DNA from: a virus
DNA length: 64,000 nucleotides
Direction: 5' to 3' (one strand)
IMG/VR virus record: IMGVR_UViG_3300047319_001872
Span: 248,001-312,000 of that record
The notes under the pieces are model-generated. The model had not been told where the DNA came from, did no database searches, and worked only from the letters and a program-made list of their open reading frames with translations. Shown piece after piece: positions 35,698 through 63,248 of this stretch (its first letter is position 1; every line of letters begins with the position of its first letter). Position numbers and translations under genes: made by a program.

Positions 35698-37053
35698 TTA
35701 CAGACGCACTGCCGGTTGCTGATTCCAGCTTCCGCCGCCTTGGTTCCAGCTACCCGCTTGCTGACCCCACTGCTGCTGTTGCGGCTGCCCACCCCACTGA
35801 TTACCCCCACCCCAGCCGGGATTGCCCACCGGACCGACCGGATTGGAGAGCGAGGCGCGTTGCGGCGGCTGCGGTTGCCAGGCCTGACCCGGATTCCAGC
35901 CATGCGAGCTACCGTAACCCACCGCTTGTTGCAGTGCGGGCTTGGAGCGCACGAGCGCTTCGAAGTCCGTACCACCCGTCGCGGTGCGTACCGGCGCACT
36001 GCTGGAGGCCGGAACCGACGGTTGCGCAGCAGGCCAACCCGGTGTGGCGGGCGGAGGCGTAGCCGGGCGCTGCGCTGCCAGCGTAACGCCTGCTGCCCCC
36101 TGAGTCGAGGCACCGGCAGGCGCATTGAAAGCCGTCTGGGTCTGGGTGACCTGTTGTTGCTTCTCGGCTTCCGTCCCCGGTACCGTGCCTTCGTTACCCG
36201 CTTGCATCGGCGTGGAACGAATTTCCGGCAGCAGTTCGTCCAGATTTTCCAGCTGGTCGACCCAGTCCGCGTTCACCAGCAGATTCTCCGGCAAGATGCC
36301 TTCGAAGCGCGAGATCAGATCGTTCAGCGGTGCGGCAATGGCTTTCACCGTCAGCAACAACGCTTCGATGGACGGCGCAATCGTGCTGTTCGAGCCACGG
36401 TTGTACACCCCGGCGATGTCTTGCTCAGGCAGGATGTAGTCCAACAGACCGATCAGGGCTTCACGATCCTTCACGCGCAGCTTCACGCCGTGCAGCTCGT
36501 TTTCGCCCTTCTTCAGTTCGTTGTAGAACGGGAAGTGTGCCACACCCACGCGAGCGTAGCGTTTGTCGCCGACCGTGCCGCCCCGTTTGATGAAGATCGA
36601 CACGAACAGCTTCTGGTGCTGAGTCGCACTGAGGCTATCCATGATTTTCTTCAGCGCAGCGAGCGTCTTCTCGTCGGCGTTCTTCACCTTGGAGAGGAAT
36701 TCGCTTTGCTCGGGGCTGAGCTTGTGCTGCTCGGCCTGGCTGGTGCCCAGTTGCAGGAGCGTATGCACGATGGTGCCAAACACCACGTTCATGCGACCGT
36801 TGATCGCCATGCGAAAGCGCTCGAATACTTCCGATTCGCCGCGCATCACGTTTTCCTGCAACGGATGGAACAGCACCTTGGTGTCCGGGCTCGGATTAGC
36901 CTGGTGTTCGCGCGTGGGCAGAACCAGACGCTTACCCTTCATGGTGAGGGGCTTGCTATCCTTGCTCGTTTTGATCGAGACGCAACCGTCGGTGGTTACG
37001 GTCAACCCTGCCGCATCCAGCACGGCTTCGTAGAACTTCAACATTTTACTCAT
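35698..37053 (-). CDS. Unknown protein with Gln/Trp/Gly-rich tail
   Basis: AGGAG precedes the ATG at 37053. Of 451 residues, the first 280 look ordered (alpha/beta, 'QHQKLFVSIFIKRGG'), then a Pro/Ala/Gln linker, and a C-terminal Trp/Gln/Gly-rich tail (NPGWGGGNQWGGQPQQQQ) that resembles phase-separating or ssDNA-protein-like tails. It lies between two RNA polymerase gene groups. A nucleic-acid binding role is possible from the tail; no family recognised. Confidence 0.65.
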   Translation of the reverse strand: MSKMLKFYEAVLDAAGLTVTTDGCVSIKTSKDSKPLTMKGKRLVLPTREHQANPSPDTKVLFHPLQENVMRGESEVFERFRMAINGRMNVVFGTIVHTLLQLGTSQAEQHKLSPEQSEFLSKVKNADEKTLAALKKIMDSLSATQHQKLFVSIFIKRGGTVGDKRYARVGVAHFPFYNELKKGENELHGVKLRVKDREALIGLLDYILPEQDIAGVYNRGSNSTIAPSIEALLLTVKAIAAPLNDLISRFEGILPENLLVNADWVDQLENLDELLPEIRSTPMQAGNEGTVPGTEAEKQQQVTQTQTAFNAPAGASTQGAAGVTLAAQRPATPPPATPGWPAAQPSVPASSSAPVRTATGGTDFEALVRSKPALQQAVGYGSSHGWNPGQAWQPQPPQRASLSNPVGPVGNPGWGGGNQWGGQPQQQQWGQQAGSWNQGGGSWNQQPAVRL

Positions 37054-40388: not shown

Positions 40389-41156
40389 TTAGAAGGGCAG
40401 GTCGTCCCCGGCGCCATCGCTGCCACCAGCGAAGCCCGAATCGTTACCGCCGCCACCGCCACCGCCGCGGTTATATCCGCCGCCACCGCCTTGACCGCCA
40501 CCGCGGTTGTAACCACCACCGCCGCCACCGCCACGATTGAAGCCACCGCCACCCTGACCGCCTTCCTTCGGAATCGGTTCTTCCCAGTGCGAGACTTGCA
40601 TGTGCGCGAGCATCTCGGTGAGAATGTTCCAGTACGCTTCAGCGGCGACCTTCGACGCTTCGGCCGCCGAGTAGTACTCGCCCGTGCCGTGCTTGAGCAA
40701 ATGGAAGTCCGAAAGCTGGAAGTTGAACTTGATGCGCGGCCGATCCTTGGCCATCACACCCATCCACAACACGCCTTCCTTGTCCTTGCCGACGAACAGT
40801 TCGGACTGCACCACCGGCTTTTCGCTGCGCTTGCCGCCGGGGAAGATGAAGTTCTTGTTCTCGATCGAGTTCTTGAACTCGTCCTTGCCGCCCGTGCCGG
40901 GAATGAAGTCGATCGCTTGACGCAGCAGGTTCAGGAAGCCGTAGAATGCGGGCGTGTCCATGTTCGCGCTGATCTTGCCGTAGTTCGTATCGCGGTCGCT
41001 GTCCACGTTCGTGTAAACGGTGATACGCGGGTTGTTCGCGAAAAGCCCCCACTGGAGCGACGCGAATTTGCCTTCCTGGTTCTTCGCCGACATCTGCAGC
41101 TTCTTGTTGTCGAGCGGAGTCTTCTTGCGCGGTGCTGCTTTGAAATCGCCTGCCAT
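40389..41156 (-). CDS. Single-stranded DNA-binding protein (SSB-like)
   Basis: A 255-residue protein. The N-terminal 170 residues are ordered and beta-rich; then a Gly/Arg/Tyr/Asn-rich tail of repeats (GGGGGGYNRGGG) and an acidic end 'GAGDDLPF', the hallmark of SSB C-terminal tips (DDDIPF in E. coli) that bind partner proteins. The N-terminal domain does not show a clear OB-fold signature by eye, so it may be an independent solution to the same task. It should coat ssDNA during replication. Confidence 0.75.
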   Translation of the reverse strand: MAGDFKAAPRKKTPLDNKKLQMSAKNQEGKFASLQWGLFANNPRITVYTNVDSDRDTNYGKISANMDTPAFYGFLNLLRQAIDFIPGTGGKDEFKNSIENKNFIFPGGKRSEKPVVQSELFVGKDKEGVLWMGVMAKDRPRIKFNFQLSDFHLLKHGTGEYYSAAEASKVAAEAYWNILTEMLAHMQVSHWEEPIPKEGGQGGGGFNRGGGGGGGYNRGGGQGGGGGYNRGGGGGGGNDSGFAGGSDGAGDDLPF

Positions 41157-41211
41157 GATGCGTTTTCCTATTGGTTTTATGGTACTCAGACCATAGGTCG
41201 GGTGAATAAAT

Positions 41212-42066
41212 TTACACTAGGATTTCCAGGAGCAGCTTGCGCGTCTCCAAATCCTCCAACTGACCGATGTTCTGGCGGATCTTCTCATCCGTCGTCACTG
41301 CCGACCAGTTGTATTTCGTTGCCAGCTCGATCACCTGTCGCCGGATGCGAATCGGCATCTGGAAAAAGGTGCGCGAATCCCCAAAGACCTGGATGAAATC
41401 TTCCCGAAACGGGATCATCGAGAGTTCACGACCGTTCTGATACTTGGTGTACCATTGCGCTCGCTTCTTGACGTTGCCCGTGTTGGACTCCAGGAGGTCT
41501 AACGAGGAAAAGGCTTTCCACGACAACAGATCGTACGCAAAGTGCGTAAAGATCAGCGTCTTGGCTTGCTGCTGCGGGAAGAGTTTGAGCTTGAACACCC
41601 GAATATCTTCACCGCCTTGTTGCTCCAGGGACTTTAAAAGCAGCTCGAGCGTCTGGTTTTTGATTTCCATATACTCTTGCTGCTTATCCGTGTTAGCTCC
41701 GCGTAGTTTGGCATGCGGATACTTCTCCTTCATGCCCGCGTAGTTGCTCACGTAAAACACGACCTTGCAATGATTGTGCGTAAACTCCTGCACGATCCGC
41801 TTGATCTGATCCATCTCATCACGAATGCCTTCGTCCAGTTGACGCGGCACGACCCCGCCTTGCACCTCCTTCGGTAAGGCACCCATGAAGTTGCGAAACA
41901 GTGTTCGCAGGTTAATCCACAGCTCGCCGTAATCCAACAGCGGGGCTTTCTTGACCTTTGGGTCATGATCCGGGTGCACACCACATGCGCCCTCCAGCGC
42001 AAGCGACGTCGCAACCGAAAGAGGATATTGACCGACTTCCCGTTCTGCAATCGCTTGCTCAAACAT
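41212..42066 (-). CDS. Unknown 284-residue protein
   Basis: AAGGAG precedes the ATG at 42066. The protein has an N-terminal 'EGACGVHPDHDPKVK' segment, then alpha/beta with strands such as 'HCKVVFYVSNYAGM' and 'KTLIFTHFAYDLLSW' that suggest a Rossmann-like core. No motif recognised. It lies between the nuclease and SSB genes, so DNA metabolism is likely by context. Confidence 0.65.
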   Translation of the reverse strand: MFEQAIAEREVGQYPLSVATSLALEGACGVHPDHDPKVKKAPLLDYGELWINLRTLFRNFMGALPKEVQGGVVPRQLDEGIRDEMDQIKRIVQEFTHNHCKVVFYVSNYAGMKEKYPHAKLRGANTDKQQEYMEIKNQTLELLLKSLEQQGGEDIRVFKLKLFPQQQAKTLIFTHFAYDLLSWKAFSSLDLLESNTGNVKKRAQWYTKYQNGRELSMIPFREDFIQVFGDSRTFFQMPIRIRRQVIELATKYNWSAVTTDEKIRQNIGQLEDLETRKLLLEILV

Positions 42067-42084
42067 GACACATTCTCCTTGTTT

Positions 42085-43212
42085 TTACAGTACTTCGGGC
42101 ATGATTGCTTGAGCCATCGCCAGTACATCGGAGGTGGCACCCGCGTTAATCAGGCGGTCCGTGAGTAACGACGTCACGTTGTCCTTGGTGATCGTAATCG
42201 GGACATACGTAATCTCATCATCCAAAGCCGCTTCCGCAGTTTCCACTTCCCCATCATCTACAGGCTGTTTGTCCCAGGTAAACCACGGCCACTTGCGAAT
42301 CAGTGCATCCATGCTCGAGAAGATGGGATTATCCCACGAGCCTCGAACCCGCACGAATGACTCTTCCGGCAAGCCCTCTACTTGCTTGGCGATTTCCGCC
42401 AGCGTATCTTCCAGCGTCATCGCCTCGCACTTTACCGTCACGAAGCGCATCGCGTCGACATTCTCCACAAACACCACATCGTGGTCCTCGCCGCGCCGAT
42501 AGGCACGCACGTGTCCCTTCGGACCCTCTTCGCCATGCGTGAGGCGATCAAAGGAGCCTTGCGCGATAATGCGTTCATAGCGCGAGTGGATGTGCACGTG
42601 ACCGATAAAGATCAGATGCTTGACGATCTTCAAGTACTCTTCGCTCGAGTGCTTCTGAGCTTTCACGATCGGGGGGAGTTGATACTCGAACTGACCGTGC
42701 ATGAAGGCGTAATCGACTTGGGTGAGCCCTTTGGCTCGTAACAGGTCATGAACTTGGCTAAGGGTGGTTTCGGTGGAATTGGTCCACTCATCGGGTACGA
42801 AGAGCAACCACTGATCGTGGCGCTCTTCGTACTCGATGGATAGACTTCTCACGTATTTGAGATCGGCGCCAATGCCTGTTACTTCGTTCAGTGACTCGAA
42901 AATGCGTGACTGTTTCCAGTCATGGCTCGGTGTGCCCTCTAGGACGTACATGCGAATACCGTGCTTCTTGCACAGTCGCAGCATATACGCCACCCACACC
43001 TTGATTTCGGTCACTTCATCATCGGGAAGTTCGAGCAACGTATCAAACACGTCGCCAGCCAACACGATGATGTCCAGCTCGGCGGTCTCGGCGTTATCCG
43101 GAAAAGCAGTGCGGAGGTTCTTAATGATACGCTCCGCGGGATTTCGCGCGTGACCAAGGTGAATATCGCTTACCACTGCGATCTTCAGGTTAGAGGGGTT
43201 CCCATTCATCAT
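42085..43212 (-). CDS. Calcineurin-like phosphoesterase (SbcD/Mre11-like)
   Basis: A 375-residue protein with the metallophosphoesterase motifs: 'VVSDIHLGH' (about 13-21), 'DIIVLAGDVFD' (48-58), an expected GTPSHD (about 99-104) and 'IFIGHVHIHSR' (about 200-210). Length and the C-terminal cap fit the SbcD/Mre11 nuclease group. Its start overlaps the end of the upstream gene. An SbcC/Rad50 ATPase partner is not in this window. It probably processes DNA ends in replication or recombination. Confidence 0.85.
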   Translation of the reverse strand: MMNGNPSNLKIAVVSDIHLGHARNPAERIIKNLRTAFPDNAETAELDIIVLAGDVFDTLLELPDDEVTEIKVWVAYMLRLCKKHGIRMYVLEGTPSHDWKQSRIFESLNEVTGIGADLKYVRSLSIEYEERHDQWLLFVPDEWTNSTETTLSQVHDLLRAKGLTQVDYAFMHGQFEYQLPPIVKAQKHSSEEYLKIVKHLIFIGHVHIHSRYERIIAQGSFDRLTHGEEGPKGHVRAYRRGEDHDVVFVENVDAMRFVTVKCEAMTLEDTLAEIAKQVEGLPEESFVRVRGSWDNPIFSSMDALIRKWPWFTWDKQPVDDGEVETAEAALDDEITYVPITITKDNVTSLLTDRLINAGATSDVLAMAQAIMPEVL

Positions 43213-46687: not shown

Positions 46688-48598
46688 TTACCAGCGCGAG
46701 CTGAAGCCCGTGCGACCCCAGCCAGCGCCTTGGTTCGACTGACCGCCGAAGCCTGCCGCGAACAGACCGGTTGCACCCGGAGCCATGAGCAGGCCGTTGG
46801 CGAACTGCGCCGTTGCACGCTCTTGACCCGCGACGTCGCCGAACGGGTATTGTGCACGCAGGACGAGACCCGCATCCACGCAGCCCTTGGCCAGCGCTTC
46901 CATGAACGCACCGTCCAGCGTTGCACGACGTGCGAAACCCGTGAAGGTTGCGTCGCCGACCAGACCCTGGATGATGTTCTTGCGACGCGCGAGACGCTGC
47001 GCGGGCGAGATTTGCAGATTGACAAACGTGTCGCTCCAGTCCTTGATGACCGTCGGGTCCTTCTCGCCGATCAGGTTCGCTACCGCGAGGTAGTCGATGT
47101 CGCGGATGTCGCGCTTGCGACCTTGCTGGTCGACGTACCAACCCAGGTGAATGCGGTTGTTGTTGTCGAACGCAACGCGGCCCGTGCCGTTCGTGTAGTG
47201 CTTCAGGAAGTTGCCGTTCGTCAGCGTCTGCGCTGCTTCGATGATGAACTCGTTGGCCTTCTGGCTGCCTTCAGCAGCAGCCGCGAACACCGAGTTCGAC
47301 CAGGTCGACGGACCGCATTCCGGCACGTCGATCGAGAGCAGCAGGCCCGGACGCACGAAAGCTTGCAGCAGCTTGTGCAGCGTGCCTTGTGCCGTGAACG
47401 CGTCCGACTTCGTGTCGATGCGCGCGCCGATACCGTTCGCGTTGCCTTCCGGGTTCGCTTCGATACCGATTGCACCGATGTCGTGCATGTCGATGCCTTG
47501 CGCGTAAGGACGCGGTGCGAAACCACGTGCCCAGGCGTTGCCGTCACGCAGCGTGAGTGCCTGAACCAGCGCGAACAGCTGAGCCGGAACGGTCATCAGC
47601 TCGAGCGTTTCCAGGTGCGTCATCACGAAGTGCGTGATGTACAGCGGGTTGAACTGCTGTTGCTGCGACTGACCCCACTGCGCGTACGGGTTCGCGGTCG
47701 GTGCGACCGGGTCCCACACGAGGTCGAGGAAGCCGCCGACTTGCGAGACCTTCGTCGCGCGTGCGTCTGCATTGGCGCCCTGGCCGGTCGTGATTGCCGT
47801 GGCGATCAGGTCGATCATCACGTCGGTGCGGATCGGCTCGCCGACCGGGTCAACCAGCTGGTCGTGGTTGAACGCGACGCGTGCGGTCAGGTTCGAGTCA
47901 CGTGCTGCGCCTGCGAGGTTCAGGTCGCGGAAGTCCGGACGCATGCGGTTCAGTTCGTGGTTCGCTGCAAACAGTGCGTTCGCGGCGAGCTGGTACACGA
48001 GCTGTTCGTCTGCGACGTCGAACGAACGCGGCACGACTTCGGCTTCAGCGTCGATCAGACGCGCGCCGTTGAACGTACGGGCCACGGCATCGGCCACGAC
48101 TTCGCGGAACTTGTCGTCCCACACGTCGCCGTCGACACGCTGGATTTCGACGTTCTGACCGTTGATCTGGTCGTACTTCGGCGGGAACGGTTCGCCCGAG
48201 CCTGCGAGGATCAGCGTGTGGTACGCGACGCCCAGGTCCAGGTCGTTCTTGTCGAACAGGGCCACGATGAGCGCCGAGCGCGCGATCGCCGGGTTGTTGT
48301 TCATGTCGAGCGGGAGCAGCTTGATCTCGAAAGCCGGGTTCGCCGACTTGTACGTTTCGATCAGGGCCTTCTCGAGCTTGACGAGCACTTCAGCAGCCGG
48401 GTTGCGGCCCATCGGTGCGTTGCCCAGGCGGCCGAGCGAGCGGAAGCTGAAGCCCGCCGGTGCGGATTGTTGTTGCTGGTTCATGGTGCCTCGCGGTTGA
48501 GAGTTCTGGTTATCCTTGGCACGGGTGAAACCCGCTGCCATTTGCGTTTCCGCCGGAGCTGCTGCTTGGCCTTCTTGGCCCGGTTGTTCGATTGCCAT
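46688..48598 (-). CDS. chmA: Chimallin-like major nuclear shell protein
   Basis: A 636-residue protein with AAGGAATAG before its ATG. The first 50 residues are Gln/Ala-rich and disordered; the body is alpha/beta; the last 30 are Gly/Gln/Phe-rich and flexible. Size is that of chimallin (about 630 residues in phage 201phi2-1). It has its own early-type promoter 85 bases upstream and a strong terminator, as expected for the most abundant early protein, and lies directly before the gp55-type gene, as phiKZ gp54 does. Chimallin tiles into the lattice that encloses phage DNA. Identity is by size, order and expression signals; no short signature motif exists. Confidence 0.78.
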   Translation of the reverse strand: MAIEQPGQEGQAAAPAETQMAAGFTRAKDNQNSQPRGTMNQQQQSAPAGFSFRSLGRLGNAPMGRNPAAEVLVKLEKALIETYKSANPAFEIKLLPLDMNNNPAIARSALIVALFDKNDLDLGVAYHTLILAGSGEPFPPKYDQINGQNVEIQRVDGDVWDDKFREVVADAVARTFNGARLIDAEAEVVPRSFDVADEQLVYQLAANALFAANHELNRMRPDFRDLNLAGAARDSNLTARVAFNHDQLVDPVGEPIRTDVMIDLIATAITTGQGANADARATKVSQVGGFLDLVWDPVAPTANPYAQWGQSQQQQFNPLYITHFVMTHLETLELMTVPAQLFALVQALTLRDGNAWARGFAPRPYAQGIDMHDIGAIGIEANPEGNANGIGARIDTKSDAFTAQGTLHKLLQAFVRPGLLLSIDVPECGPSTWSNSVFAAAAEGSQKANEFIIEAAQTLTNGNFLKHYTNGTGRVAFDNNNRIHLGWYVDQQGRKRDIRDIDYLAVANLIGEKDPTVIKDWSDTFVNLQISPAQRLARRKNIIQGLVGDATFTGFARRATLDGAFMEALAKGCVDAGLVLRAQYPFGDVAGQERATAQFANGLLMAPGATGLFAAGFGGQSNQGAGWGRTGFSSRW

Positions 48599-54907: not shown

Positions 54908-57037
54908 TTAGTGCGAGTCTGACACGAGGCGTGTCAATTTGTCGTTCGAGAGATAAATCCCGAGCGTTTCGAGGATAATGTAAAATACGCGCGTAGCATC
55001 CGCGACGATCTTACGCACCCCAGCCACCTGGAGGATTTCAGTCGGAATCCCTTTAGTCTGGAGATTCTGTTCCGGCAATTGCACCGAGCCCACATAGCGC
55101 TTACCCATTCGCTTCATGTACGCTTCCATGCGACCTGCCAGTTCCCGATCCTCGAGCGACTCTAACCACTCACGGGTCTTAGTCGGTGTGTCCAGCTCAG
55201 TGGCAATCTTGACACAGGTGTACGGTACAGGGGGGGCGATACCGTACTTGGGACCAAACACCTCATTCCACATCACGTACTGCTGATACGGCGATTCATC
55301 CGCCGACTTCGCATACGAATCGGGCGTTTTAATCTGACCCATCCGGAAAAACTGATAGCCGCCTTCGCCGATCGCCGTAAAGATCTGGCGCTCGATGTCA
55401 GCAATCGTCTTCAGGATGTCGTGGATCTTGATCTTCTCACCCTTCAGGACCGAGTTCATGATAAAGAGCATCATCTTCTCGGCTTCCTTAATTACGAAGC
55501 GCGGGGCGTTCGACGCCTTCAAGTGCACACCCTTGATTTCCTTCTTGTACTCCTTGAAGAGGTTGCCTTCCTGGCAGCCAATCAAGGCGAAGTAGTGCTT
55601 GGCCACTTGGGTCGCGACAAACACATCGAACTTGAATTCGTTCTTCATGGCGACTTTGTGGATGTACTTCTCCACAATGCCAAAGTTCGCACTCATGCGC
55701 GCCAAGACGTGAATGATGGTCTGCGCAGCGAGGTACACCATCGACGCTGCCACCGCATTACACTTCTCGTCAAAACCGAGCCAGCCCTGATGCCAGAGCA
55801 CCCAATCTTGCACGGTAAAGATGGTCGAGTCCGTATCCGACGTAATCGCCGAACGACGAATCGAGTCGGGGAAGAACGCGAGCGAGGCCGGTACATTGGT
55901 CGTCACCCAGAAGGCCGCGATCAGGTCCCGATATTCTTCACCCACATCGCCGATGTTCTTGGCCGTCGAGGCCAGGATACCGCGCGCTTCGCCGACGATT
56001 TCATGCATCTGCAAGCCCTTGGTGTAGCGCTCACAGATTTGGGCTGCCAGGTGCACGTGTTCTTCTTGCACCGTCTTCAAGATGCTGTCCGGCTCCGGAT
56101 GCGGCACTTCCACCAGCATCGACAGCTTGCTGATGAACTTACGCACCACCTCGTCATTAAAACGCATCAGGTGGTACAAGTCACCCGTGTAGACAAAGGC
56201 GGAACGCTGCTCGGGCGAGAGCGTCTTCACCAGGTCATACACCTTTTTCATCTTGAACTTGTCGCGCACATAGAAGTTCGTCGAGTACATGATGCATTCC
56301 ATCGTCTCATCGACCGACGGATGACGAATGCCAAACTTCTGCATCGCCGCAGCTTGCGCTGCATAGTCCGTGTGGTTGATAATCGAGATGATATTCTGCA
56401 TGCAGATCTCGATCGACCAGTAATGGCGATTGCCCGAGAGGAACTTCTCGTTATTCGCATTACCAAAGCCCGAGGTCGAGCGACAGTTCGAGGTGAGCGT
56501 CGAGTGAGCGGTCTTATTGTACAGCGGGGTCGAAGGACTGACGTGCGCACCCGAGATCGAGTTATTCGCCAGCTTCTTATTGGTCTGCTCATTGTCCTTG
56601 ATCTGCATCAGGACGATGTCGCCTTCCATTTCCGCCTTGAACTTTGCCTTCTTTGCCACCCCCCGTGCTTTCACGTTGCCCTCGATGTAGTCGACGAGCG
56701 GTGACTGCTTCTGGTCCGGATGCAAATACGTGGTGAGCGTCGGCGCAATCAGTTCTTTGTTACGGATCGAATCATTCAGGTAGGCCTGCAGCGTGCCTTC
56801 CATCTGGACCCGGTCACCGTTGTCCTGACGCTCGAGGTAGACGATCTTCGGGTCCTTGAATTCAAACTGTCCGCCGGGACGCATCTCCGTTTTCACAAAG
56901 GTCGTGCAGTCCTCGATCGGTGCCCCCGTCATTTGATGCAAATAGGTCGCGCAGTCCTGGACATAATAGCCGAGGACGTTTAGATCGCGCTTGTACTGGG
57001 AAGGCGCCAGTACAAATGGGTTGTTCGCTTCTGACAC
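54908..57037 (-). CDS. B-family DNA polymerase, C-terminal half (motifs B and C)
   Basis: A 709-residue protein with a GTG start after AAGGAG. Motif B is 'KKLANNSISG' (154-163; Kx..NSxYG type) and motif C is SDTDSTIF (400-407). A palm/thumb region follows ('KNEFKFDVFVATQVAKHYFA'). The exonuclease and motif A are in the gene at 9025-10998. The first 150 residues would continue the fingers/palm after the split. Together the two chains should form one replicase. Confidence 0.88.
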   Translation of the reverse strand: MSEANNPFVLAPSQYKRDLNVLGYYVQDCATYLHQMTGAPIEDCTTFVKTEMRPGGQFEFKDPKIVYLERQDNGDRVQMEGTLQAYLNDSIRNKELIAPTLTTYLHPDQKQSPLVDYIEGNVKARGVAKKAKFKAEMEGDIVLMQIKDNEQTNKKLANNSISGAHVSPSTPLYNKTAHSTLTSNCRSTSGFGNANNEKFLSGNRHYWSIEICMQNIISIINHTDYAAQAAAMQKFGIRHPSVDETMECIMYSTNFYVRDKFKMKKVYDLVKTLSPEQRSAFVYTGDLYHLMRFNDEVVRKFISKLSMLVEVPHPEPDSILKTVQEEHVHLAAQICERYTKGLQMHEIVGEARGILASTAKNIGDVGEEYRDLIAAFWVTTNVPASLAFFPDSIRRSAITSDTDSTIFTVQDWVLWHQGWLGFDEKCNAVAASMVYLAAQTIIHVLARMSANFGIVEKYIHKVAMKNEFKFDVFVATQVAKHYFALIGCQEGNLFKEYKKEIKGVHLKASNAPRFVIKEAEKMMLFIMNSVLKGEKIKIHDILKTIADIERQIFTAIGEGGYQFFRMGQIKTPDSYAKSADESPYQQYVMWNEVFGPKYGIAPPVPYTCVKIATELDTPTKTREWLESLEDRELAGRMEAYMKRMGKRYVGSVQLPEQNLQTKGIPTEILQVAGVRKIVADATRVFYIILETLGIYLSNDKLTRLVSDSH

Positions 57038-57106
57038 TTTGTTTTACTCCTTGTCGACCTACATGATCAAGGAGCCCAATAAAAACGAATCAGCGGCATA
57101 AAAAGG

Positions 57107-57145
57107 AAAAAAGGGCGAGGAGCGGTTTCGGGCCGCCACCTCGCC
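57107..57145 (-). terminator. Intrinsic terminator ending a minus-strand non-coding transcript
   Basis: On the minus strand GGCGAGG...CCTCGCC (57145-57139, 57120-57114) contains an inner GCGG/CCGC. It is followed by TTTTTTCCTTTTTATGCCGC. No gene lies just upstream on that strand: the nearest ends at 57605, 460 bases away. Confidence 0.8.
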
Positions 57146-57309
57146 TAAATACAGGTCGTTACAAGTACCGAAAAGGAAAACCAGTCACTGAACATGCCCG
57201 ATCAATTCGGAGCCACAGAGACTCTACTACCACTACCACTTCAACCAAAATCGAGATAGACAGGGGCCAGCTTACTCTTAATCCACGCGATCGACCAACT
57301 TCCACAGGA

Positions 57310-57503
57310 GACTCCTATATTCGCCAAAGAGCGCTTGCGGAGGCGCAGAGCAGCGATAGGAGTAGGATCGATGTACGAGGAAACGCTGGTGCCAGGGGAA
57401 ACAAGGAGGAAACCCCAGCAGCGTGAATAAGCCAGCCCCGCGTCTAGGCATACGGCGCGGTAGCCCGCGGGAGGGCTCGCGCGAGAGTCCTTATCGGCAC
57501 CAG
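57310..57503 (-). ncRNA. Structured RNA candidate B
   Basis: Inside the 567-base gene-free stretch 57038-57604. ACTCCTAT (57311-57318) pairs with ATAGGAGT (57356-57363). CTGGTGCC (57386-57393) pairs with GGCACCAG (57496-57503) and encloses GGGG/CCCC (57395, 57413), ATAAG/CTTAT (57427, 57490), CCGCG/CGCGG (57438, 57456) and AGCCC/GGGCT (57462, 57473). The helices nest properly and make a multibranch fold. The T-run of the terminator at 57107 places it on the minus strand. No open frame with a ribosome site is present. Bounds are approximate. Confidence 0.6.
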
Positions 57504-57604
57504 TCAGGAGGAGGTCTGCTGTCGATGAGGGTACAGGCTTGCCGGGCCTTTCTCTTCAGAACATTACGGATGGGCGATATAAATTAACTAGGGTAAACCC
57601 ACGT

Positions 57605-58006
57605 TTACTTGATCGCTACCGTAACGAAGTTGTAACCGTTGGCGGCCAAAATAGCCTGAACCTTCGGAATGTCCTGCGGGGTCACCTGGGCGATGGTCGC
57701 CGTGATGGTCTGCGCTGTGACGAGCGTCACGGACGAGTCGTCAATCCATGCCACACCCAGAATTTGGGTGTTGCCGTTTTGCGTCTTGACCTTGATGTAC
57801 AGGTACGCGGCCGGATCGTTCGGCGTGTGGGTCTGCGGACCGAAGAACGGATAGAACTGCACGTGCAAGGACGTCATGTCTTCGTCCTTCATCGCGTCTT
57901 CGTACGACATCACCGAGGTGACCTTGACGTTCTGCCAGTCGCTGCCCAGCAGAGGCGGATAGACGTTAAACGAGTACGTCTGCCCGATAGCAAAATTGTA
58001 AGCCAT
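57605..58006 (-). CDS. Unknown beta-rich 133-residue protein
   Basis: The start at 58006 (MAYNFAIGQTY) is preferred over one 24 bases upstream. The product is beta-rich with 'AAYLYIKVKTQNGNTQILG' and 'SSVTLVTAQTITATIAQV', suggesting a small barrel or sandwich. It is the last of the eight-gene row that begins at 61503, and precedes the structured region B. No family recognised with confidence. Confidence 0.6.
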   Translation of the reverse strand: MAYNFAIGQTYSFNVYPPLLGSDWQNVKVTSVMSYEDAMKDEDMTSLHVQFYPFFGPQTHTPNDPAAYLYIKVKTQNGNTQILGVAWIDDSSVTLVTAQTITATIAQVTPQDIPKVQAILAANGYNFVTVAIK

Positions 58007-58040
58007 GGTTTCCCGTGCCCAAATGAACAAAAAAAAAAGA

Positions 58041-58442
58041 TCAGAAGGGCAGGTGATCCAAAATCACGTCGTCACCGAGAAACTGGTGGACGTAGTACGG
58101 GAAGCCGTAGCCGCTACCGGCCGCTCCTGTACGTAGTCCACGCAATCCCTCGAGACGCGCGTACACACTCTGTGCCAGATTTTGAACCGCTGCCCGCAAT
58201 CGCTGATACTCGCTAGACGCCGTGTTTTCATAAACCGGGTCTACTATACGATTGGTAATGGGCAGCGCCTCGAGTCGGGCAGGACCGTTTGCTGAATAGT
58301 CCAAAAACACTTCGAAGATCTGCGTGATGATTTCGCGCTTATCGTTGAAGTGAATAGGCAAACCTTGCACTTCAAACAGAAACTGCGCCCAGAGATCCGC
58401 CGTCTCAACGATCATGAGTCTGCTGTAATGCTCGTTTGCCAT
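58041..58442 (-). CDS. Small protein of the 57.6-61.5 kb row
   Basis: The ATG at 58442 (MANEHYSRL) is 8 bases after the stop of the upstream gene. In 133 residues: a helical body and a C-terminal 'GYGFPYYVHQFLGDDVILDH', similar to ends of two neighbours. Function unknown. Confidence 0.6.
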   Translation of the reverse strand: MANEHYSRLMIVETADLWAQFLFEVQGLPIHFNDKREIITQIFEVFLDYSANGPARLEALPITNRIVDPVYENTASSEYQRLRAAVQNLAQSVYARLEGLRGLRTGAAGSGYGFPYYVHQFLGDDVILDHLPF

Positions 58443-58449
58443 AGTCAAT

Positions 58450-58926
58450 TCACAGGTTAGGGATGTGCTCAGCATGCAGGTGTCGCAGCACCATGTCACG
58501 ACCGAGCCAGTCGTGGAACTGATAATACAGGTAACCGTTCTGGTAGGCCCGCATCATGCGCAGCTTCTCGAGCACCTCTTCGCCAAAGCGATTCAAGAGC
58601 CCGGCAAAACGCCGATACGAGTCCTCGCACGAGGAACCCAATTCATTCAGGAACATCTCGGCACAGGCGAAGTTCAACTCATCACGGGCTGTGCGCTCGT
58701 AGTGGATCGACTCCATCACGATCTGGGCGACCATGTCCATCACCGTGTGGGGAAACTTATCCACCAGCATGACGGGCGTATCCGGAATCAATGACTCCAG
58801 ATCTCGAGCTTTCCACAGCAGCGTGGCCAACTCAGAGTCGGTATCCAGAACCAAAAAGGTCGAAGGAGGCTGGCGGTTGACCGAACTCCTCAAAATCGGC
58901 CTTGGCAAACCGGACAAGATGGTCAC
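58450..58926 (-). CDS. Small protein of the row, start inside upstream gene
   Basis: A GTG at 58926 with GGAGG 6 bases upstream is the best start, so the gene overlaps the upstream gene by about 95 bases; a later start would shorten the overlap. The 158-residue helical product ends 'LYYQFHDWLGRDMVLRHL...', the same motif as in the gene at 58041. Function unknown. Confidence 0.55.
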   Translation of the reverse strand: MTILSGLPRPILRSSVNRQPPSTFLVLDTDSELATLLWKARDLESLIPDTPVMLVDKFPHTVMDMVAQIVMESIHYERTARDELNFACAEMFLNELGSSCEDSYRRFAGLLNRFGEEVLEKLRMMRAYQNGYLYYQFHDWLGRDMVLRHLHAEHIPNL

Positions 58927-59287
58927 TGTGGACCTCCGCAAAAAGATAGGGAAAATAGCCGTCAGGCGGCAGATAAGCGTTGTACTCAAAGCGCAACCGA
59001 TCTCGCATGGCGAGTCCCATCTTCATCACGGCTTCAAACATATCGCGATGAGGACCACGGGGAATATCGGCTTCCTCGATGCGGAACTCCTGGTAGCCGC
59101 AGTCGTATGCCAGTACGATCGCCACTTCCGTGAGCTCAGACTCTGCACAATCATACACGCTAATTGCGCCAAACACGCTCGCCAGCACTTCGCTCAAATC
59201 AAAGGGCGGACGAAAAGGCTGGGTCGCCACGCGCAGAAACCCATGGATCTCTTGCGTGAAGTCGATCAATAGGTTTTCAGTATACAC
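58832..59287 (-). CDS. Small protein of the row, 151 residues
   Basis: A GTG at 59287 (VYTENLLIDF) follows GGGGAA and lies at the end of the upstream gene. The product has 'FRPPFDLSEVLASVFG', a helix, 'FEYNAYLPPDGYFPYLFAEV' and a C-terminal 'DHLVRF' reminiscent of the family ending. Its last 95 bases are shared with the next gene in another frame. Confidence 0.55.
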   Translation of the reverse strand: MYTENLLIDFTQEIHGFLRVATQPFRPPFDLSEVLASVFGAISVYDCAESELTEVAIVLAYDCGYQEFRIEEADIPRGPHRDMFEAVMKMGLAMRDRLRFEYNAYLPPDGYFPYLFAEVHSDHLVRFAKADFEEFGQPPASFDLFGSGYRL

Positions 59288-59762
59288 GGCGTTTTCCCCA
59301 ATTGTTGGTGAGGACCTCGATACCCACCACCAGATCTCGACCGATCCAGCGCGGACTTTGGTCATCGATCTGGTAAGGTCGAGTGCTAAAGAGATCTTGC
59401 ATGATGAGCAATACTTGCTCTTCAATGGATTGCGTGATCATCTCCAGCTCACCCACCCGGCTCATGTATTCGCTTAAGTCCACGGACGTATGTTTGATAC
59501 GGCCCGTACGCTCATCGAACTGTTCATGACGCCGGTTAACGTAACTGTCAAACTTCTTCAACACGAAATCCACCAACTCACTGTGGTGATGCTGCAGCGA
59601 GCGCTGGTACTCAGTGTACGGCGAGGTTTCCTGAAACGACGTACCCAAGACTGCATTCTTCACGACGGAATGCACACCGCCCTTCAGAAAGAGCTTGAAC
59701 AACTCATCGTACACCATGGATTCCGTGATCAGATCACACGTCGGCAATATGAAAACGGACAT
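59277..59762 (-). CDS. Small protein of the row, 161 residues
   Basis: AAGGAATAG precedes the ATG at 59762. The helical product has 'VVKNAVLGTSFQETSPYTEY' and ends 'SPRWIGRDLVVGIEVLTNN', again a W/F-(L/I)-G-x-D-x-V end. Function unknown. Confidence 0.6.
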   Translation of the reverse strand: MSVFILPTCDLITESMVYDELFKLFLKGGVHSVVKNAVLGTSFQETSPYTEYQRSLQHHHSELVDFVLKKFDSYVNRRHEQFDERTGRIKHTSVDLSEYMSRVGELEMITQSIEEQVLLIMQDLFSTRPYQIDDQSPRWIGRDLVVGIEVLTNNWGKRRVY

Positions 59763-59800
59763 GGTTGCTATTCCTTGTTTCGATTGTAATGACCTGTTAC

Positions 59801-60268
59801 TTATAGTCGTACGGGCGCGTTGATGAGATCTTCCATCGGGAGGCGTTCAATCGTGTCCATGTAGTTCGGGAATTCCGTCACCACCACATCCCACGAGCCC
59901 GTAAGATCAGCGTACGCCTGGGTCGACGTATCGTTTATTTTCAGGTGCGGCAACACCGCGCCGATGTAATCGACGATCATGTCAAACGCACGGTTGCATA
60001 ACTGGTGCGCGGCATTATGATTCATGCCCGAATTCTGCAACAGGGCTTTGGCCGCGACCAGGTATTCGGAAGGATGCGCCTCACACGTGTTGTCAAACAC
60101 GTCCTTGAGCAAGGCTTCCAGGAGCGGGCCACTGTCGTAGCTTCTCCAGTTCGGATCAAGTGCGGCTTCCGGATTGCGTGGGTTACGCTTGCGTGCTTGA
60201 TACAGAGCCAGCTCGCGTTGCACGAACATGCCCACATCCAGCAGCGAAATCACCGTACTGCTTTTCAT
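59801..60268 (-). CDS. Small protein of the row, 155 residues
   Basis: The ATG at 60268 (MKSSTVISLL) has a purine-rich leader. The product is helical and acidic with 'NHNAAHQLCNRAFDMIVDYI' near the middle. Lacks a clear copy of the family C-terminal motif. Function unknown. Confidence 0.58.
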   Translation of the reverse strand: MKSSTVISLLDVGMFVQRELALYQARKRNPRNPEAALDPNWRSYDSGPLLEALLKDVFDNTCEAHPSEYLVAAKALLQNSGMNHNAAHQLCNRAFDMIVDYIGAVLPHLKINDTSTQAYADLTGSWDVVVTEFPNYMDTIERLPMEDLINAPVRL

Positions 60269-60295
60269 CTCTACTCATCCCCGCCACGCGCTCTG

Positions 60296-61105
60296 TTAAT
60301 CTTCAAAATCGCGGCCGTGCTCCATCATCCACGAATAGATCCGATAGTCGATGGTCTTTTCCACCCGCACCACCGTGTTATCCACTTTCATGAAGTGCAT
60401 GATCCAGCGATCTTGTCCCAAGAAGTCTGTCAACTGATGTAGCATGTCGCTCAATTGCAGCGTGATGCTCTCACAGATCTCCTGCGACGCGTAAAAAAGT
60501 TGCTTGTCCTGTTCCGAGATGCGCGCGCGGCCCAGGTCATCCGTGGGTTCATGCTCCACGGCGACGATGTTGCCGGTTTCCCCCCAGCTAAAATTGGCGT
60601 CATTCGGATCTTTCGGATACTGGAACACCGAATCGACCGTGATGCCCGAGCGCTGGAACTGCTCGAAAAGAAACGGACGGATCACCGCGTCGAAATTCAG
60701 CTTCTTGTGGCCGCGACGAATCCGGCCTTGGCTGGACCACTTCGCATGGTTGATCACCATGTGGTCAATCAGCTCGATGAGCAAATTGCGTGCGCGCAGT
60801 GAAAAGCGTGACTGCGGCTTCAGATACGGCAGATGCACCTTGGGTACGACCAGATCGGCTTTCGCATCGTAGACTTCGTCGCGCAACGGCAACTCGAAAG
60901 ACGTAATCGGGATCGGTGTGGCGACATTGTTGACCGCTTCACCTGCGTAGAAATACGGCTGTCCCGCGACCATCACCGGCTCACACTGAGTCGGCAGGTA
61001 CAAGCCTTCCGGATTGGGCAACATGTAGGGACCTGCGGCAGCTTCCACCGCGTCGACCCAGTCTCCCAGATCCAGCACCAGCGTTCCAGTGATTTTCAGT
61101 TCCAT
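60296..61105 (-). CDS. Unknown 269-residue protein of the row
   Basis: The ATG at 61105 overlaps the end of the upstream gene (AAAATGGAACTGA), so it is translationally coupled. The N-terminal part is beta-rich ('MELKITGTLVLDLGDWVDAV'); the C-terminal part is helical and contains 'LTDFLGQDRWIMHFMKVDN', related in layout to neighbours. Function unknown. Confidence 0.6.
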   Translation of the reverse strand: MELKITGTLVLDLGDWVDAVEAAAGPYMLPNPEGLYLPTQCEPVMVAGQPYFYAGEAVNNVATPIPITSFELPLRDEVYDAKADLVVPKVHLPYLKPQSRFSLRARNLLIELIDHMVINHAKWSSQGRIRRGHKKLNFDAVIRPFLFEQFQRSGITVDSVFQYPKDPNDANFSWGETGNIVAVEHEPTDDLGRARISEQDKQLFYASQEICESITLQLSDMLHQLTDFLGQDRWIMHFMKVDNTVVRVEKTIDYRIYSWMMEHGRDFED

Positions 61106-61503
61106 TTTCTTTGGTAGTCGTAGTTCGTATTGGCAGGGCGATTGTGCACGTAGTACCACATGTACAAGTCAATCCCGCGGATTTCTAAGTCGATGAAGCA
61201 GTTGTCGCCGTACAGCTGCGGCACCTTGATGTATTGGCCGGTGTAGTAATCCAGGTCCAACTCGGAGCGGATCTGGGCATGCAGTCGGGCAAAGCGCCAG
61301 TCCTGCGGGTCGTGGTTCACCGAGAACAAATGATACACCTGCTCAATCTGTTCTTTGACGATCCATTCGATTAAGCGCTCTTCAGTCAACCCGGAGAAGA
61401 TCAGTTGACTCGCAACTGCCCTCGTAGCGCCCTTTAAGACGCTCAGGAAGTCATGGATCTCCTGGATCAATAGCGCCCTAGGTTCGACGGTTAAGAGGTT
61501 CAT
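61096..61503 (-). CDS. Small protein of the row, first gene
   Basis: AAGGAG precedes the ATG at 61503. The 135-residue product has helices then 'VPQLYGDNCFIDLEIRGIDL'. It starts the row directly after the terminator at 61568. Function unknown. Confidence 0.6.
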   Translation of the reverse strand: MNLLTVEPRALLIQEIHDFLSVLKGATRAVASQLIFSGLTEERLIEWIVKEQIEQVYHLFSVNHDPQDWRFARLHAQIRSELDLDYYTGQYIKVPQLYGDNCFIDLEIRGIDLYMWYYVHNRPANTNYDYQRKWN

Positions 61504-61567
61504 GGCGGCTCCTTATACACAGTATCCAGCGGCTACGTTTGTTTTGACTATTTGTGTAACTGCGGCA

Positions 61568-61622
61568 TAAAAAAATAATCAGTCCCTTTTGCACCCTCCC
61601 GTAGGAAGGCATAAAAGGGACT
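61568..61622 (-). terminator. Intrinsic terminator ending a minus-strand non-coding transcript
   Basis: AGTCCCTTTT (61581-61590) pairs with AAAAGGGACT (61613-61622), 10 bp. On the minus strand it is followed by GATTATTTTTTTATGCCGC. It closes the 740-base gene-free stretch after the tubulin gene. Confidence 0.8.
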
Positions 61623-61740
61623 CGCCTCGTCCGATGCTCACCCAAACAGCTACCCGTAAAACGGACTGTGGTATTGTTGCGGTCGGAACTGAGGCGGTCT
61701 GGACATCTCAAGCTGCGAGCCAAGTGTTAGGCCCTAGTGC

Positions 61741-62153
61741 TAATTTTTAGACAGTCCATGGACCTCTAAACAATTGCTTCGGGTACTCCCTTGAAAACTG
61801 TCGCACTTATTGCCTCCTGCGCACCAGTAGGCGGCAGGCCATTACTCACGGAATGTAAAAGACCCTAGCCCCCGATGCACCCCCTGCGCCTGATGCGCGG
61901 TTCGGCTGGAATGGGACTAAAGTCTGCGCATGGCCAAATCATCGGTCCGAGTCAACGGGCCAAGCGCATCGCCTCAATGGCTGAAGGTACTACGAGCACC
62001 CTTAGCTCGCGTTGCCTTCCCCAGCTGGGGACGTCGCGCATGATGTCTATTCACCCTCGCATGCGCCTGCAAGGGTGAGGACCGATGAACTTTACGAGTG
62101 GCGGCGGCCTGAATGGACGGGAACCACGAAAAATCGTGATAGATAAACCGTCC
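61741..62153 (-). ncRNA. Large structured RNA candidate C
   Basis: Part of the 740-base gene-free stretch 61504-62243. Helices seen: TCATCGGTCC/GGACCGATGA (61939-61948, 62079-62088, 10 bp), TCACCCT/AGGGTGA (62051, 62072), CCCC(AGCT)GGGG (62019), CGAGC/GCTCG (61993, 62005), GGACGG/CCGTCC (62115, 62148) around CACGA/TCGTG, GACAGT/ACTGTC (61750, 61797), GCCTCCTGC/GCGGCAGGC (61812, 61831; 8 of 9). GATGCGC/GCGCATC (61892, 61964) crosses the 10-bp helix, a pseudoknot if real. No gene with a ribosome site fits. Strand is minus by the terminator at 61568. Confidence 0.6.
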
Positions 62154-62243
62154 AAAGTCAGACCACCACCACCGGGCCAGAGAGCTGATCTGGCTAAACA
62201 TCGGTTCTTATTGCTTTCCTTATCGTGTCGTCCAGCGTTGTTG

Positions 62244-63248
62244 TTAGAGGATCAGCCCCGTTTCATCCGCACGGTCGCCTGCGCCCAGAATGGACTTGTG
62301 CGCGACGCGCGACTGCTGTTCCTCGCTCAGGTGCGAGAGCACCTTTTGCACGTTGGCCACGGCTTCGTGGATCACCCGGTCGCCCGTGATGTAATGCACC
62401 GGCGATTCCTTGGCGATGTTCTCGGGCATGTCGGCCGGGAACAGTCCGAGAAAGCGCACTTCGGGCATGAACGGTAGCGTCGCATCAGCGCCCGCTTTCG
62501 CCAGCGTCGCAACGCTGATGACATTGCCCACGTGAGCGTGCGATTCGCCGTTCTTGACGATGTGCAGGCCTGCGAGCATCGGCTGCTTGAAGGTGGTGAC
62601 CTTGTCGAAGCGCAACCAGTTGTAGAGGTCACGTGTATCGAGCTCGGTGTTCTCGCGGCTAAAGAGCGCAGCGAGGCCGACCACGACGGTTTCGATTTCA
62701 GCGTCCACCGCAGCGCGCGGGGTGTCTTGCGTGTTCTGCAGATAGGCGATGACGATCGGGGCGCCCGCGGCCTTGGCGATGGCTTCGTAGGACTTGATCG
62801 TGTTGAGCGTGTTCTCCGCGTACAGCCGGGTCGAGGCATCGCCCACCATGACCACCACCACCGGCACGTCACGTGCGAGCAGCTCTTGCGTAAGAATCGG
62901 GCCGATCACCGAACCCGAACCACCCGACGCCGAATGCAACACCAGTGCCAGGTTACCCGGCTTGTGCGCGTGCAGGATTTCCTTGACGCGTTCCTTCACG
63001 ACAGCGGCATGTTCGCGGCGCACTTGTCCAGAACCGTCGAGGCCCTGGAAGTGGTAGATCGCGTTCGCATCGATGTTCGCGTTGAGCATGTTCGACTTGC
63101 TGGTGTCGATATACGTCGGCTCGACGACAGCCATGCCAGCTTGTGCTTTACCGCGGTACTTCTCGAAGCGCGTCGCAATGTTCGTGCCAGCTCCGCCCGC
63201 TGCGTAGATGCTGATACGACCTTTGACTTTCTCGATGATTTCGGACAT
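62244..63248 (-). CDS. phuZ: PhuZ phage tubulin
   Basis: A 334-residue tubulin/FtsZ-fold GTPase. The N-terminal strand-loop 'YAAGGAGTNIA' (15-25) is the first nucleotide-binding loop; 'HSASGGSGSVIG' (105-116) is the tubulin signature G-loop. The C-terminal acidic tail is the type used for lateral contacts. In phiKZ-like phages PhuZ filaments form a spindle that centres the phage nucleus and carry capsids to it. AGGAAAG precedes the ATG. It is second after the promoter at 63802. Confidence 0.9.
   Translation of the reverse strand: MSEIIEKVKGRISIYAAGGAGTNIATRFEKYRGKAQAGMAVVEPTYIDTSKSNMLNANIDANAIYHFQGLDGSGQVRREHAAVVKERVKEILHAHKPGNLALVLHSASGGSGSVIGPILTQELLARDVPVVVVMVGDASTRLYAENTLNTIKSYEAIAKAAGAPIVIAYLQNTQDTPRAAVDAEIETVVVGLAALFSRENTELDTRDLYNWLRFDKVTTFKQPMLAGLHIVKNGESHAHVGNVISVATLAKAGADATLPFMPEVRFLGLFPADMPENIAKESPVHYITGDRVIHEAVANVQKVLSHLSEEQQSRVAHKSILGAGDRADETGLIL

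Follow-up and report, generated by a model that had tools for sequence, protein, structure and literature searches.

The gene of a structured noncoding RNA directly upstream of the DNA polymerase gene of a jumbo phage, in the region 57146-57604 (region B), is well supported and in our judgment very likely. A pyrimidine-rich hairpin loop within it is exactly complementary to a frequent leader motif of this phage lineage. The function that we favor, for which we see about an even chance on the basis of sequence comparison, is that the RNA forms a transcription unit of its own and would pair in trans with the ribosome-binding leaders of the phage. Such an RNA may act as a switch for the replication program of the virus.

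Genomic setting

The stretch of DNA analyzed here (the window) comprises 64,000 nt and corresponds to positions 248001-312000 of a 313,315-base virus record (G000); its relevant features are compiled in Table 1. Matches to the phage tubulin PhuZ (62244-63248) and to the nuclear shell protein (46691-48598), together with those of the polymerase and the SH3-fold protein, identify the phage as a phiKZ-like jumbo phage of the nucleus-forming type. Among named phages, Burkholderia phage FLC9 was the nearest relative found, and its polymerase is 86.3% identical. The remaining seven small genes between region B and a further region (region C) had no Pfam or PHROG match at an E value of 0.001.

Table 1. 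Positions (window numbering) of the predicted RNA, its elements, and adjacent features
Feature	Position	Strand	Basis or remark
Divergent family B DNA polymerase (PF20286)	54908..57037	-	Gene downstream of the RNA region
ACAAGGAG, DNA polymerase ribosome-binding site	57047..57054	-	Complementary to 8 nt of the loop
TTTATGCCG, post-hairpin signature	57094..57102	-	Genome-wide
Predicted structured noncoding RNA, ~440 nt	57110..57551	-	Covariation, G-U bias, no shared ORF; ends inferred
Terminator hairpin, T-runs after it	57114..57145	-	Taken as the 3' end of the RNA
Near-invariant 3' block UUGUAACGACCUGUAU/G	57149..57164	-	Ahead of the terminator, unpaired in the model
Stem ACTCCTAT/ATAGGAGT enclosing inner hairpins	57311..57363 (arms 57311-57318, 57356-57363)	-	Compensatory changes
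Hairpin GGGG-UUUCCUCCUUGUUU-CCCC, exposed pyrimidine loop	57395..57416	-	Predicted fold and alignment
5' hairpin RGGC-CCGGCAA-GCCY	57535..57549	-	Outer pair A-U -> G-C between relatives
Promoter-like element: AT tract AGTTAATTTATATCG, then CCGTAATGTTCTGAAGAG	57552..57590	-	Sequence comparison
SH3-fold protein associated with phage DNA polymerases (PF20287)	57605..58009	-	Gene upstream of the RNA region
Conserved unannotated ORF in region C	61974..62201	-	74-81 aa, MFSQISSLARWWW..., Trp-rich start, basic end

Conserved fold of a predicted minus-strand RNA

In a blastn search for distant relatives of the region (E value of 1), FLC9 was the sole match among 50,697 phage records, with 68.0% identity across 91% of the query and no annotated feature at this site. 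Relatives in IMG/VR (L003-L012, L022, and L031) share 69-100% identity, and their alignment consists of invariant blocks between variable, gap-rich stretches. The fold was modeled, excluding the promoter-like part, from six sequences (window, L022, L009, L011, L012, and FLC9; 68-100% identity), which represent five effective lineages because the window and L022 are 98% alike. It contains 89 pairs in 17 helices, and 97.0% of 531 cells are paired. Changes on both sides were found in 25 pairs, amounting to 55 cells compared with a shuffled mean of 21.9 (0/500 shuffles); the number dropped to 2-11 when the helix partners were slid as a control, a comparison in which the fold has the advantage of having been derived from the same alignment. 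There was no excess of further pair types (63 versus 61.7 in shuffles). Read on the minus strand, the fold comprises 75 G-U cells versus 4 A-C cells, and due to this asymmetry the RNA was assigned to the minus strand. The covariation term amounts to -12.31 for the minus strand versus -3.35 for the plus strand, and a plus-strand RNA was rejected on the basis of its weaker covariation and of the G-U/A-C counts.

The sequence-only reading had proposed a multibranch fold with a minus-strand terminator but without a gene, in which a helix of CTGGTGCC and GGCACCAG encloses nested stems next to a separate stem. Covariation backs a structured minus-strand RNA of this kind, and the inverted pairs and the terminator-type hairpin are indeed present. 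As proposed, the fold is of the multibranch type, but the long-range helices that are conserved in it pair columns 159-180 with 334-358 of alignment A2 (UAGAC/GUCUA and GGGGCUG.../...CAGCCCC) and are not those that had been named. The pairing of CTGGTGCC (57496-57503) with GGCACCAG (57386-57393, minus strand) lost its enclosing role, since 8, 8, 7, 1, 1, and 3 of its 8 pairs are kept across the six sequences, i.e., the helix is preserved in three sequences of one clade and lost in the other three. The separate stem ACTCCTAT/ATAGGAGT proved to be conserved, with 8, 8, 8, 8, 7, and 7 of 8 pairs. The comparison with random shuffles that had also been suggested gave only a mildly low folding energy (z of -1.91 on the minus and -2.27 on the plus strand, with 3/100 dinucleotide shuffles as good on either strand); by itself it is a weak case, whereas conservation is a strong one.

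No minus-strand ORF of at least 20 aa with start and stop columns common to all six sequences was found, and a protein-coding reading of this strand was discarded for this reason. A 54-aa plus-strand GTG ORF (57423-57587), ahead of which the complement of the loop resembles a ribosome-binding site, was judged unlikely by eye on the plus-strand alignment, where single-base gaps among relatives shift its frame and L012 has no start. Region B contained no tRNA. Covariance models of Rfam 15 gave no match at the gathering score in the whole window, none up to an E value of 5 in 57040-62243, and none in the loci of six relatives.

Predicted ends of the transcript

Comparison of the relatives predicts that the RNA has a promoter and a terminator of its own. 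The motif CCGTAATGTTCTGAAGAG, which follows the AT tract and precedes the 5' hairpin, is invariant among the aligned relatives. By eye, a similar AT arrangement is seen ahead of the 5' hairpin in many distant relatives, and a similar promoter-like arrangement, TTTTTATT...ATCATGTAGG, also stands ahead of the polymerase gene, after the terminator of the RNA. Of 22 relatives, 12 have a T tract ending in A at most 65 nt from the hairpin, compared with an expectation of 3.8 based on shuffles; the window itself lies outside this strict form. A variable-gap promoter pattern had no match, but the pattern itself does not fit the promoter-like element of the polymerase, so that this negative carries no weight. 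In the promoter passage of PMC7598289, the middle promoters of phiKZ are described as having a weak AT-rich motif and the late ones as showing nothing but a TATG that overlaps the start. The terminator hairpin was not listed by a simple terminator scan, probably because its stem is interrupted.

The sequence TTTATGCCG occurs in 22 copies in record G000 (e.g., at 57094-57102 and 61563-61571 of the window), whereas its reversal occurs in 5. Hairpins with 5 or more pairs end at most 18 nt before it in 18/22 cases and at most 2 nt before it in 12, a spacing observed at 16% and 5% of random sites, respectively. It resembles a phage terminator signature and includes the TATG that PMC7598289 mentions for phiKZ late promoters.

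An antisense role of the near-invariant 3' block is a lead only. As a second antisense element the block was rejected, because its mean duplex over the leaders was no better than that of shuffled blocks; its best duplex in G000 (-19.0 kcal/mol) was matched by 10/200 shuffled blocks and that in FLC9 by 126/200. The near-complements of the block (UUGUAACGACCUGUAG) are a small-gene leader at 59784-59799 (minus strand), which also bears GAAACAAGG, and the leader of the RNA-polymerase beta-type subunit gene 32889-35114 (minus strand); the complementarity of neither is significant against shuffled blocks. The leader of the gene 59277-59762 reads ACAGGTC(A/G)TTA in four relatives shown alongside the window and ACTAGGTCGTTA in FLC9.

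Complementarity of the loop to ribosome-binding leaders

The pyrimidine loop reads UUUCCUCCUUGUUUC in the window and UUUCUUCCUUGUUUC in FLC9; CCTTGTTTC is identical in 9/9 aligned rows and forms an open loop in the predicted fold of the window. Its invariant part CCUUGUUUC (57398-57406, minus strand) is the exact complement of GAAACAAGG. This 9-mer, which was chosen after matches of the loop complement at start sites had appeared, has 9 copies in the whole record, whereas the reversed control has none. One copy is the loop, and each of the other eight is located 11-19 nt ahead of a start codon whose ORF has a length of at least 161 aa. Among the NNNNNAAGG 9-mers at start sites, GAAACAAGG ranks at the top both in the window (5/5 copies; runner-up 2) and in 62 kb of FLC9 (4/4; runner-up 3).

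The shorter motif AAACAAGG accounts for 12/66 AAGG leaders in 184 kb of G000 (193 predicted genes) and for 14/69 in FLC9 (151 genes), with a runner-up of 3 in each. Sampled copies outside the loop stand ahead of an ORF of at least 60 aa in 14/16 cases in G000 and in 21/24 cases in FLC9, where two copies precede one and the same gene. The genes marked in this way include the nuclear shell protein, two RNA-polymerase beta-type subunits, and a ribonuclease with an uncertain start codon, in FLC9 also PhuZ and thymidylate synthase, and many are without known function; five marked gene pairs are orthologous between the two phages. All 14 G000 leaders with an ORF are located on the minus strand, as are 145/193 predicted genes, and the sampled FLC9 (LC667451.1) leaders with an ORF are likewise all on the minus strand.

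Several leaders thus match the loop, as is looked for in a trans-acting small RNA. Predicted duplexes of the loop with the 14 G000 leaders range from -10.3 to -21.2 kcal/mol, and the mean for the complete set of 193 leaders is -8.00 versus -6.86 kcal/mol for shuffled loops, with 1/200 as low. The sequence AAACAAGGAG has 12 copies in FLC9 (control, 1) and 0-2 per record in 13 others, two of which are short.

The locus in other jumbo phages

A gene for the SH3-fold protein at most 2.5 kb upstream of the polymerase was found in 87/93 phages or contigs, and the gap between both genes measures 200-1000 nt in 64/87, some with inserted ORFs. Hairpins with TCCTT in a loop of 8-20 nt are present in 42 of these 64 gap regions, compared with 20.0 expected and 15 on the reverse strand. 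The excess was found in the regions seen before the motif was stated (22/30 versus 9.9 expected; reverse strand, 3) and in those fetched afterward (20/34 versus 10.2 in shuffles, 0/200; reverse strand, 12/34). A stricter rule applied to 60 regions (32.9 kb) yielded 37 pyrimidine-loop hairpins on the RNA strand versus 2 on the other strand, compared to 35 and 51 in 389 kb of flanks. The 5' hairpin in relatives was assessed by pattern counts with controls: a GGG hairpin followed by GGNTYGC, a rule that the window lineage itself does not satisfy, was counted 18 times versus once in the regions and 19 and 16 times in the flanks. Both rules were set post hoc with all regions already seen, and nested matches were counted repeatedly. 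The composition of the pyrimidine-rich loops predicts 9.3 occurrences of UCCUU, and 26 were observed. In phiKZ, phiPA3, Phabio, Psa21, 201phi2-1, Totoro, SURPRISE13, and SNUABM_54, the gap either does not exceed about 200 nt or is occupied by annotated genes. A locus with pyrimidine-loop hairpins is hence common among the relatives, but not universal.

For 11 other records, 8-mers predicted from their loops were fixed beforehand and ranked among the sampled leaders. The predicted 8-mer was at the top or tied for it in G007 and G002, was present on one or two leaders in G003 (percentile of 0.98), G004 (0.94), and G008 (0.95), and was absent among the sampled leaders of G001, G005, G006, G009, and Goslar. 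In G010 the 8-mer of the first loop was likewise absent and that of the second tied for the top with two. The top leader of G004, AAACAAGG, is not the one predicted from the loop of that record. The mean percentile was 0.73 for own versus 0.55 for swapped predictions with the window phage and FLC9 included, and 0.68 once these two phages, from which the motif was discovered, were removed. A 10-mer of G001, TGTAAAGGAG, has 5 copies versus none in the control (one in a loop, three in leaders including that of the polymerase, and one in neither), and a loop 9-mer of G002 has two sites (control, 1), the loop itself and a non-leader. Due to these mixed results across the 11 records, a co-adaptation of loop and leader across lineages is not established. 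A search of genome contigs with the loop 19-mer yielded four scattered matches, which were taken as chance given the size of the collection.

Proposed function and alternatives

Pairing with ribosome-binding sites appears to be the best-supported function of the RNA and is borne out only in part in other lineages. In FLC9-like nucleus-forming jumbo phages, an RNA of about 440 nt would be transcribed as a separate unit from the minus strand, and one of its hairpins would expose the loop UUUCYUCCUUGUUUC in the cell. This loop would pair with core-gene leaders of the type GAAACAAGG(AGG), i.e., those of the nuclear shell protein, RNA-polymerase subunits, PhuZ in FLC9, and partly the DNA polymerase, and pairing would repress or time the translation of these genes. 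A point against it is that the leader motif may just be the strong ribosome-binding site of the lineage, which any anti-Shine-Dalgarno loop would fit. The timing of translation of mRNAs leaving the phage nucleus is a standing question for nucleus-forming phages; an antisense RNA directed at the start sites of the genes for shell, polymerase, and tubulin would, if confirmed, represent a testable post-transcriptional switch and an unannotated gene at one locus across many jumbo phages. A whole RNA family at a fixed locus ahead of the polymerase, with a loop adapted in each lineage and serving as a master regulator for the translation of shell, RNA-polymerase, tubulin, and replication genes, is a tentative extension that we consider possible, if rather doubtful.

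The RNA might instead be a cis-acting leader of the DNA polymerase gene, similar to an attenuator or riboswitch, whose terminator decides on expression. Its location on the same strand directly upstream of the polymerase with a terminator ahead of the gene, also in the aligned relatives, the 8-nt match of the loop to the ribosome-binding site of the polymerase itself, and a duplex of the 3' block with the polymerase leader of -11.6 kcal/mol (rank 9/193; in FLC9 -13.6 kcal/mol, rank 3/165) would agree with such a leader, and the 180-nt 5'-UTR RNA of phiKZ p40, thought in the relevant passage of PMC8545117 to arise from premature termination, offers a precedent. A cis-acting leader is nevertheless unlikely, if not negligible, given the promoter-like element seen by eye between the terminator and the polymerase start, the many relatives with a polymerase but without such a region, and the better fit of the loop to the leaders of other genes (the polymerase ranks 16/193 and, in FLC9, 29/165). 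An architectural or protein-binding RNA, e.g., in a ribonucleoprotein of the phage nucleus or virion or as a host-factor decoy, in which proteins would bind the pyrimidine loops, would account for the large size, the many helices, the invariant unpaired blocks, and the U-rich loops of relatives that often have no match among the sampled leaders. It leaves the exact complementarity to the commonest AAGG leader of the lineage unexplained, and we regard it as quite unlikely. Both readings are compatible with pairing to ribosome-binding sites and do not exclude it.

Two further explanations concern the origin of the sequence. That the sequence is the 3' untranslated region of the small-gene operon, from which processing would at most release a stable fragment, is suggested by the position directly behind the last gene of the operon and by the terminator at its end, and the approximately 100-nt phiKZ RNA from the 3' UTR of PHIKZ298 is a precedent in the noncoding-RNA passages of PMC8545117. 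We consider it improbable, since a conserved multi-helix structure of about 440 nt exceeds the needs of a terminator and the operon is separated from the RNA by a promoter-like element; processing would in any case give the same RNA. That there is no functional RNA at all, but chance-structured intergenic DNA or an unrecognized coding sequence, would fit a folding energy near that of shuffles and is scarcely credible in view of the covariation, the G-U asymmetry, the invariant blocks, and the absence of a shared ORF.

Relation to known RNAs

Trans-acting bacterial small RNAs are known to block ribosome-binding sites via C/U-rich loops, e.g., staphylococcal RNAIII. With its structure, an anti-Shine-Dalgarno loop that is predicted to be exposed, and several mRNA targets proposed here from sequence, the RNA of region B would act in the manner of RNAIII. 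Unlike RNAIII, it is encoded by a phage and would be aimed at the leaders of the phage itself, and its complementarity, known here from sequence alone, includes GAAAC beyond the Shine-Dalgarno core. Antisense oligomers that can be programmed against phage mRNAs are reportedly aimed at start sites. The large RNAs GOLLD, ROOL, and OLE have Rfam models, whereas the RNA of region B matches no Rfam family. They are comparable to it as large, conserved, many-helix noncoding RNAs that are partly phage borne, according to the passages of PMC12286853 that treat them. The antisense oligomers described in the corresponding part of PMC12571901 silence phage genes, and phiKZ is one of the subjects of that work; they are man-made, whereas the antisense element proposed here would be phage encoded.

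Noncoding RNAs of phiKZ were detected by Grad-seq in the 3' UTR of PHIKZ298 and the 5' UTR of p40, the latter also as a band of about 180 nt on a Northern blot (results passages of PMC8545117). Like the predicted RNA of region B, they are structured, terminator-ended, and of gene-free origin in a related nucleus-forming phage; no pairing target is proposed for them in these passages, whereas the loop of region B matches leaders. The loci differ, p40 (PHIKZ117.2) being located at 114533-114628 and the polymerase at 40578-42773 of phiKZ, and the p40 5'-UTR RNA shares neither the locus nor, by blastn against 50,697 phage records at an E value of 1, the sequence. In the phiKZ genome (NC_004629.1), an unannotated gap of 685 nt (114629-115313) is found upstream of p40, source of a published noncoding RNA, and a second one of 578 nt (35763-36340) is located between PHIKZ042 and PHIKZ043. 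Expression of noncoding RNAs by phiKZ is also stated in the pertinent part of the review PMC13282480, and a search of the review PMC12908238 gave no passage on phage noncoding RNAs. No title describing this RNA was among the matches listed for the jumbo-phage and structured-RNA literature, mainly non-subscription and without preprints.

Region C

Regions B and C bracket the small-gene cluster, as had been noted, and do so in FLC9 as well, but region C is not wholly gene-free: the ORF of Table 1 is conserved in 6/6 compared sequences, with a codon-sized gap between relatives, and FLC9 has no CDS annotated there. The search for shared sequence that had been suggested was negative, with no region B match for region C as a blastn query (E value of 0.001), and the idea that both regions are copies of one RNA was abandoned on these grounds. 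The element common to both is TTTATGCCG 3' of a terminator, which is found genome-wide. A counterpart of the phiKZ p40 RNA in region C was rejected because p40 is located elsewhere. The remainder of region C (61504-61970, minus strand) has 70-75% DNA identity in FLC9, L012, and L031. A consensus fold predicted for all of region C contains 211 pairs, 43 of them compensatory and partly over the ORF, and 61504-61970, located between phuZ and the operon of small genes, possibly encodes another structured RNA.
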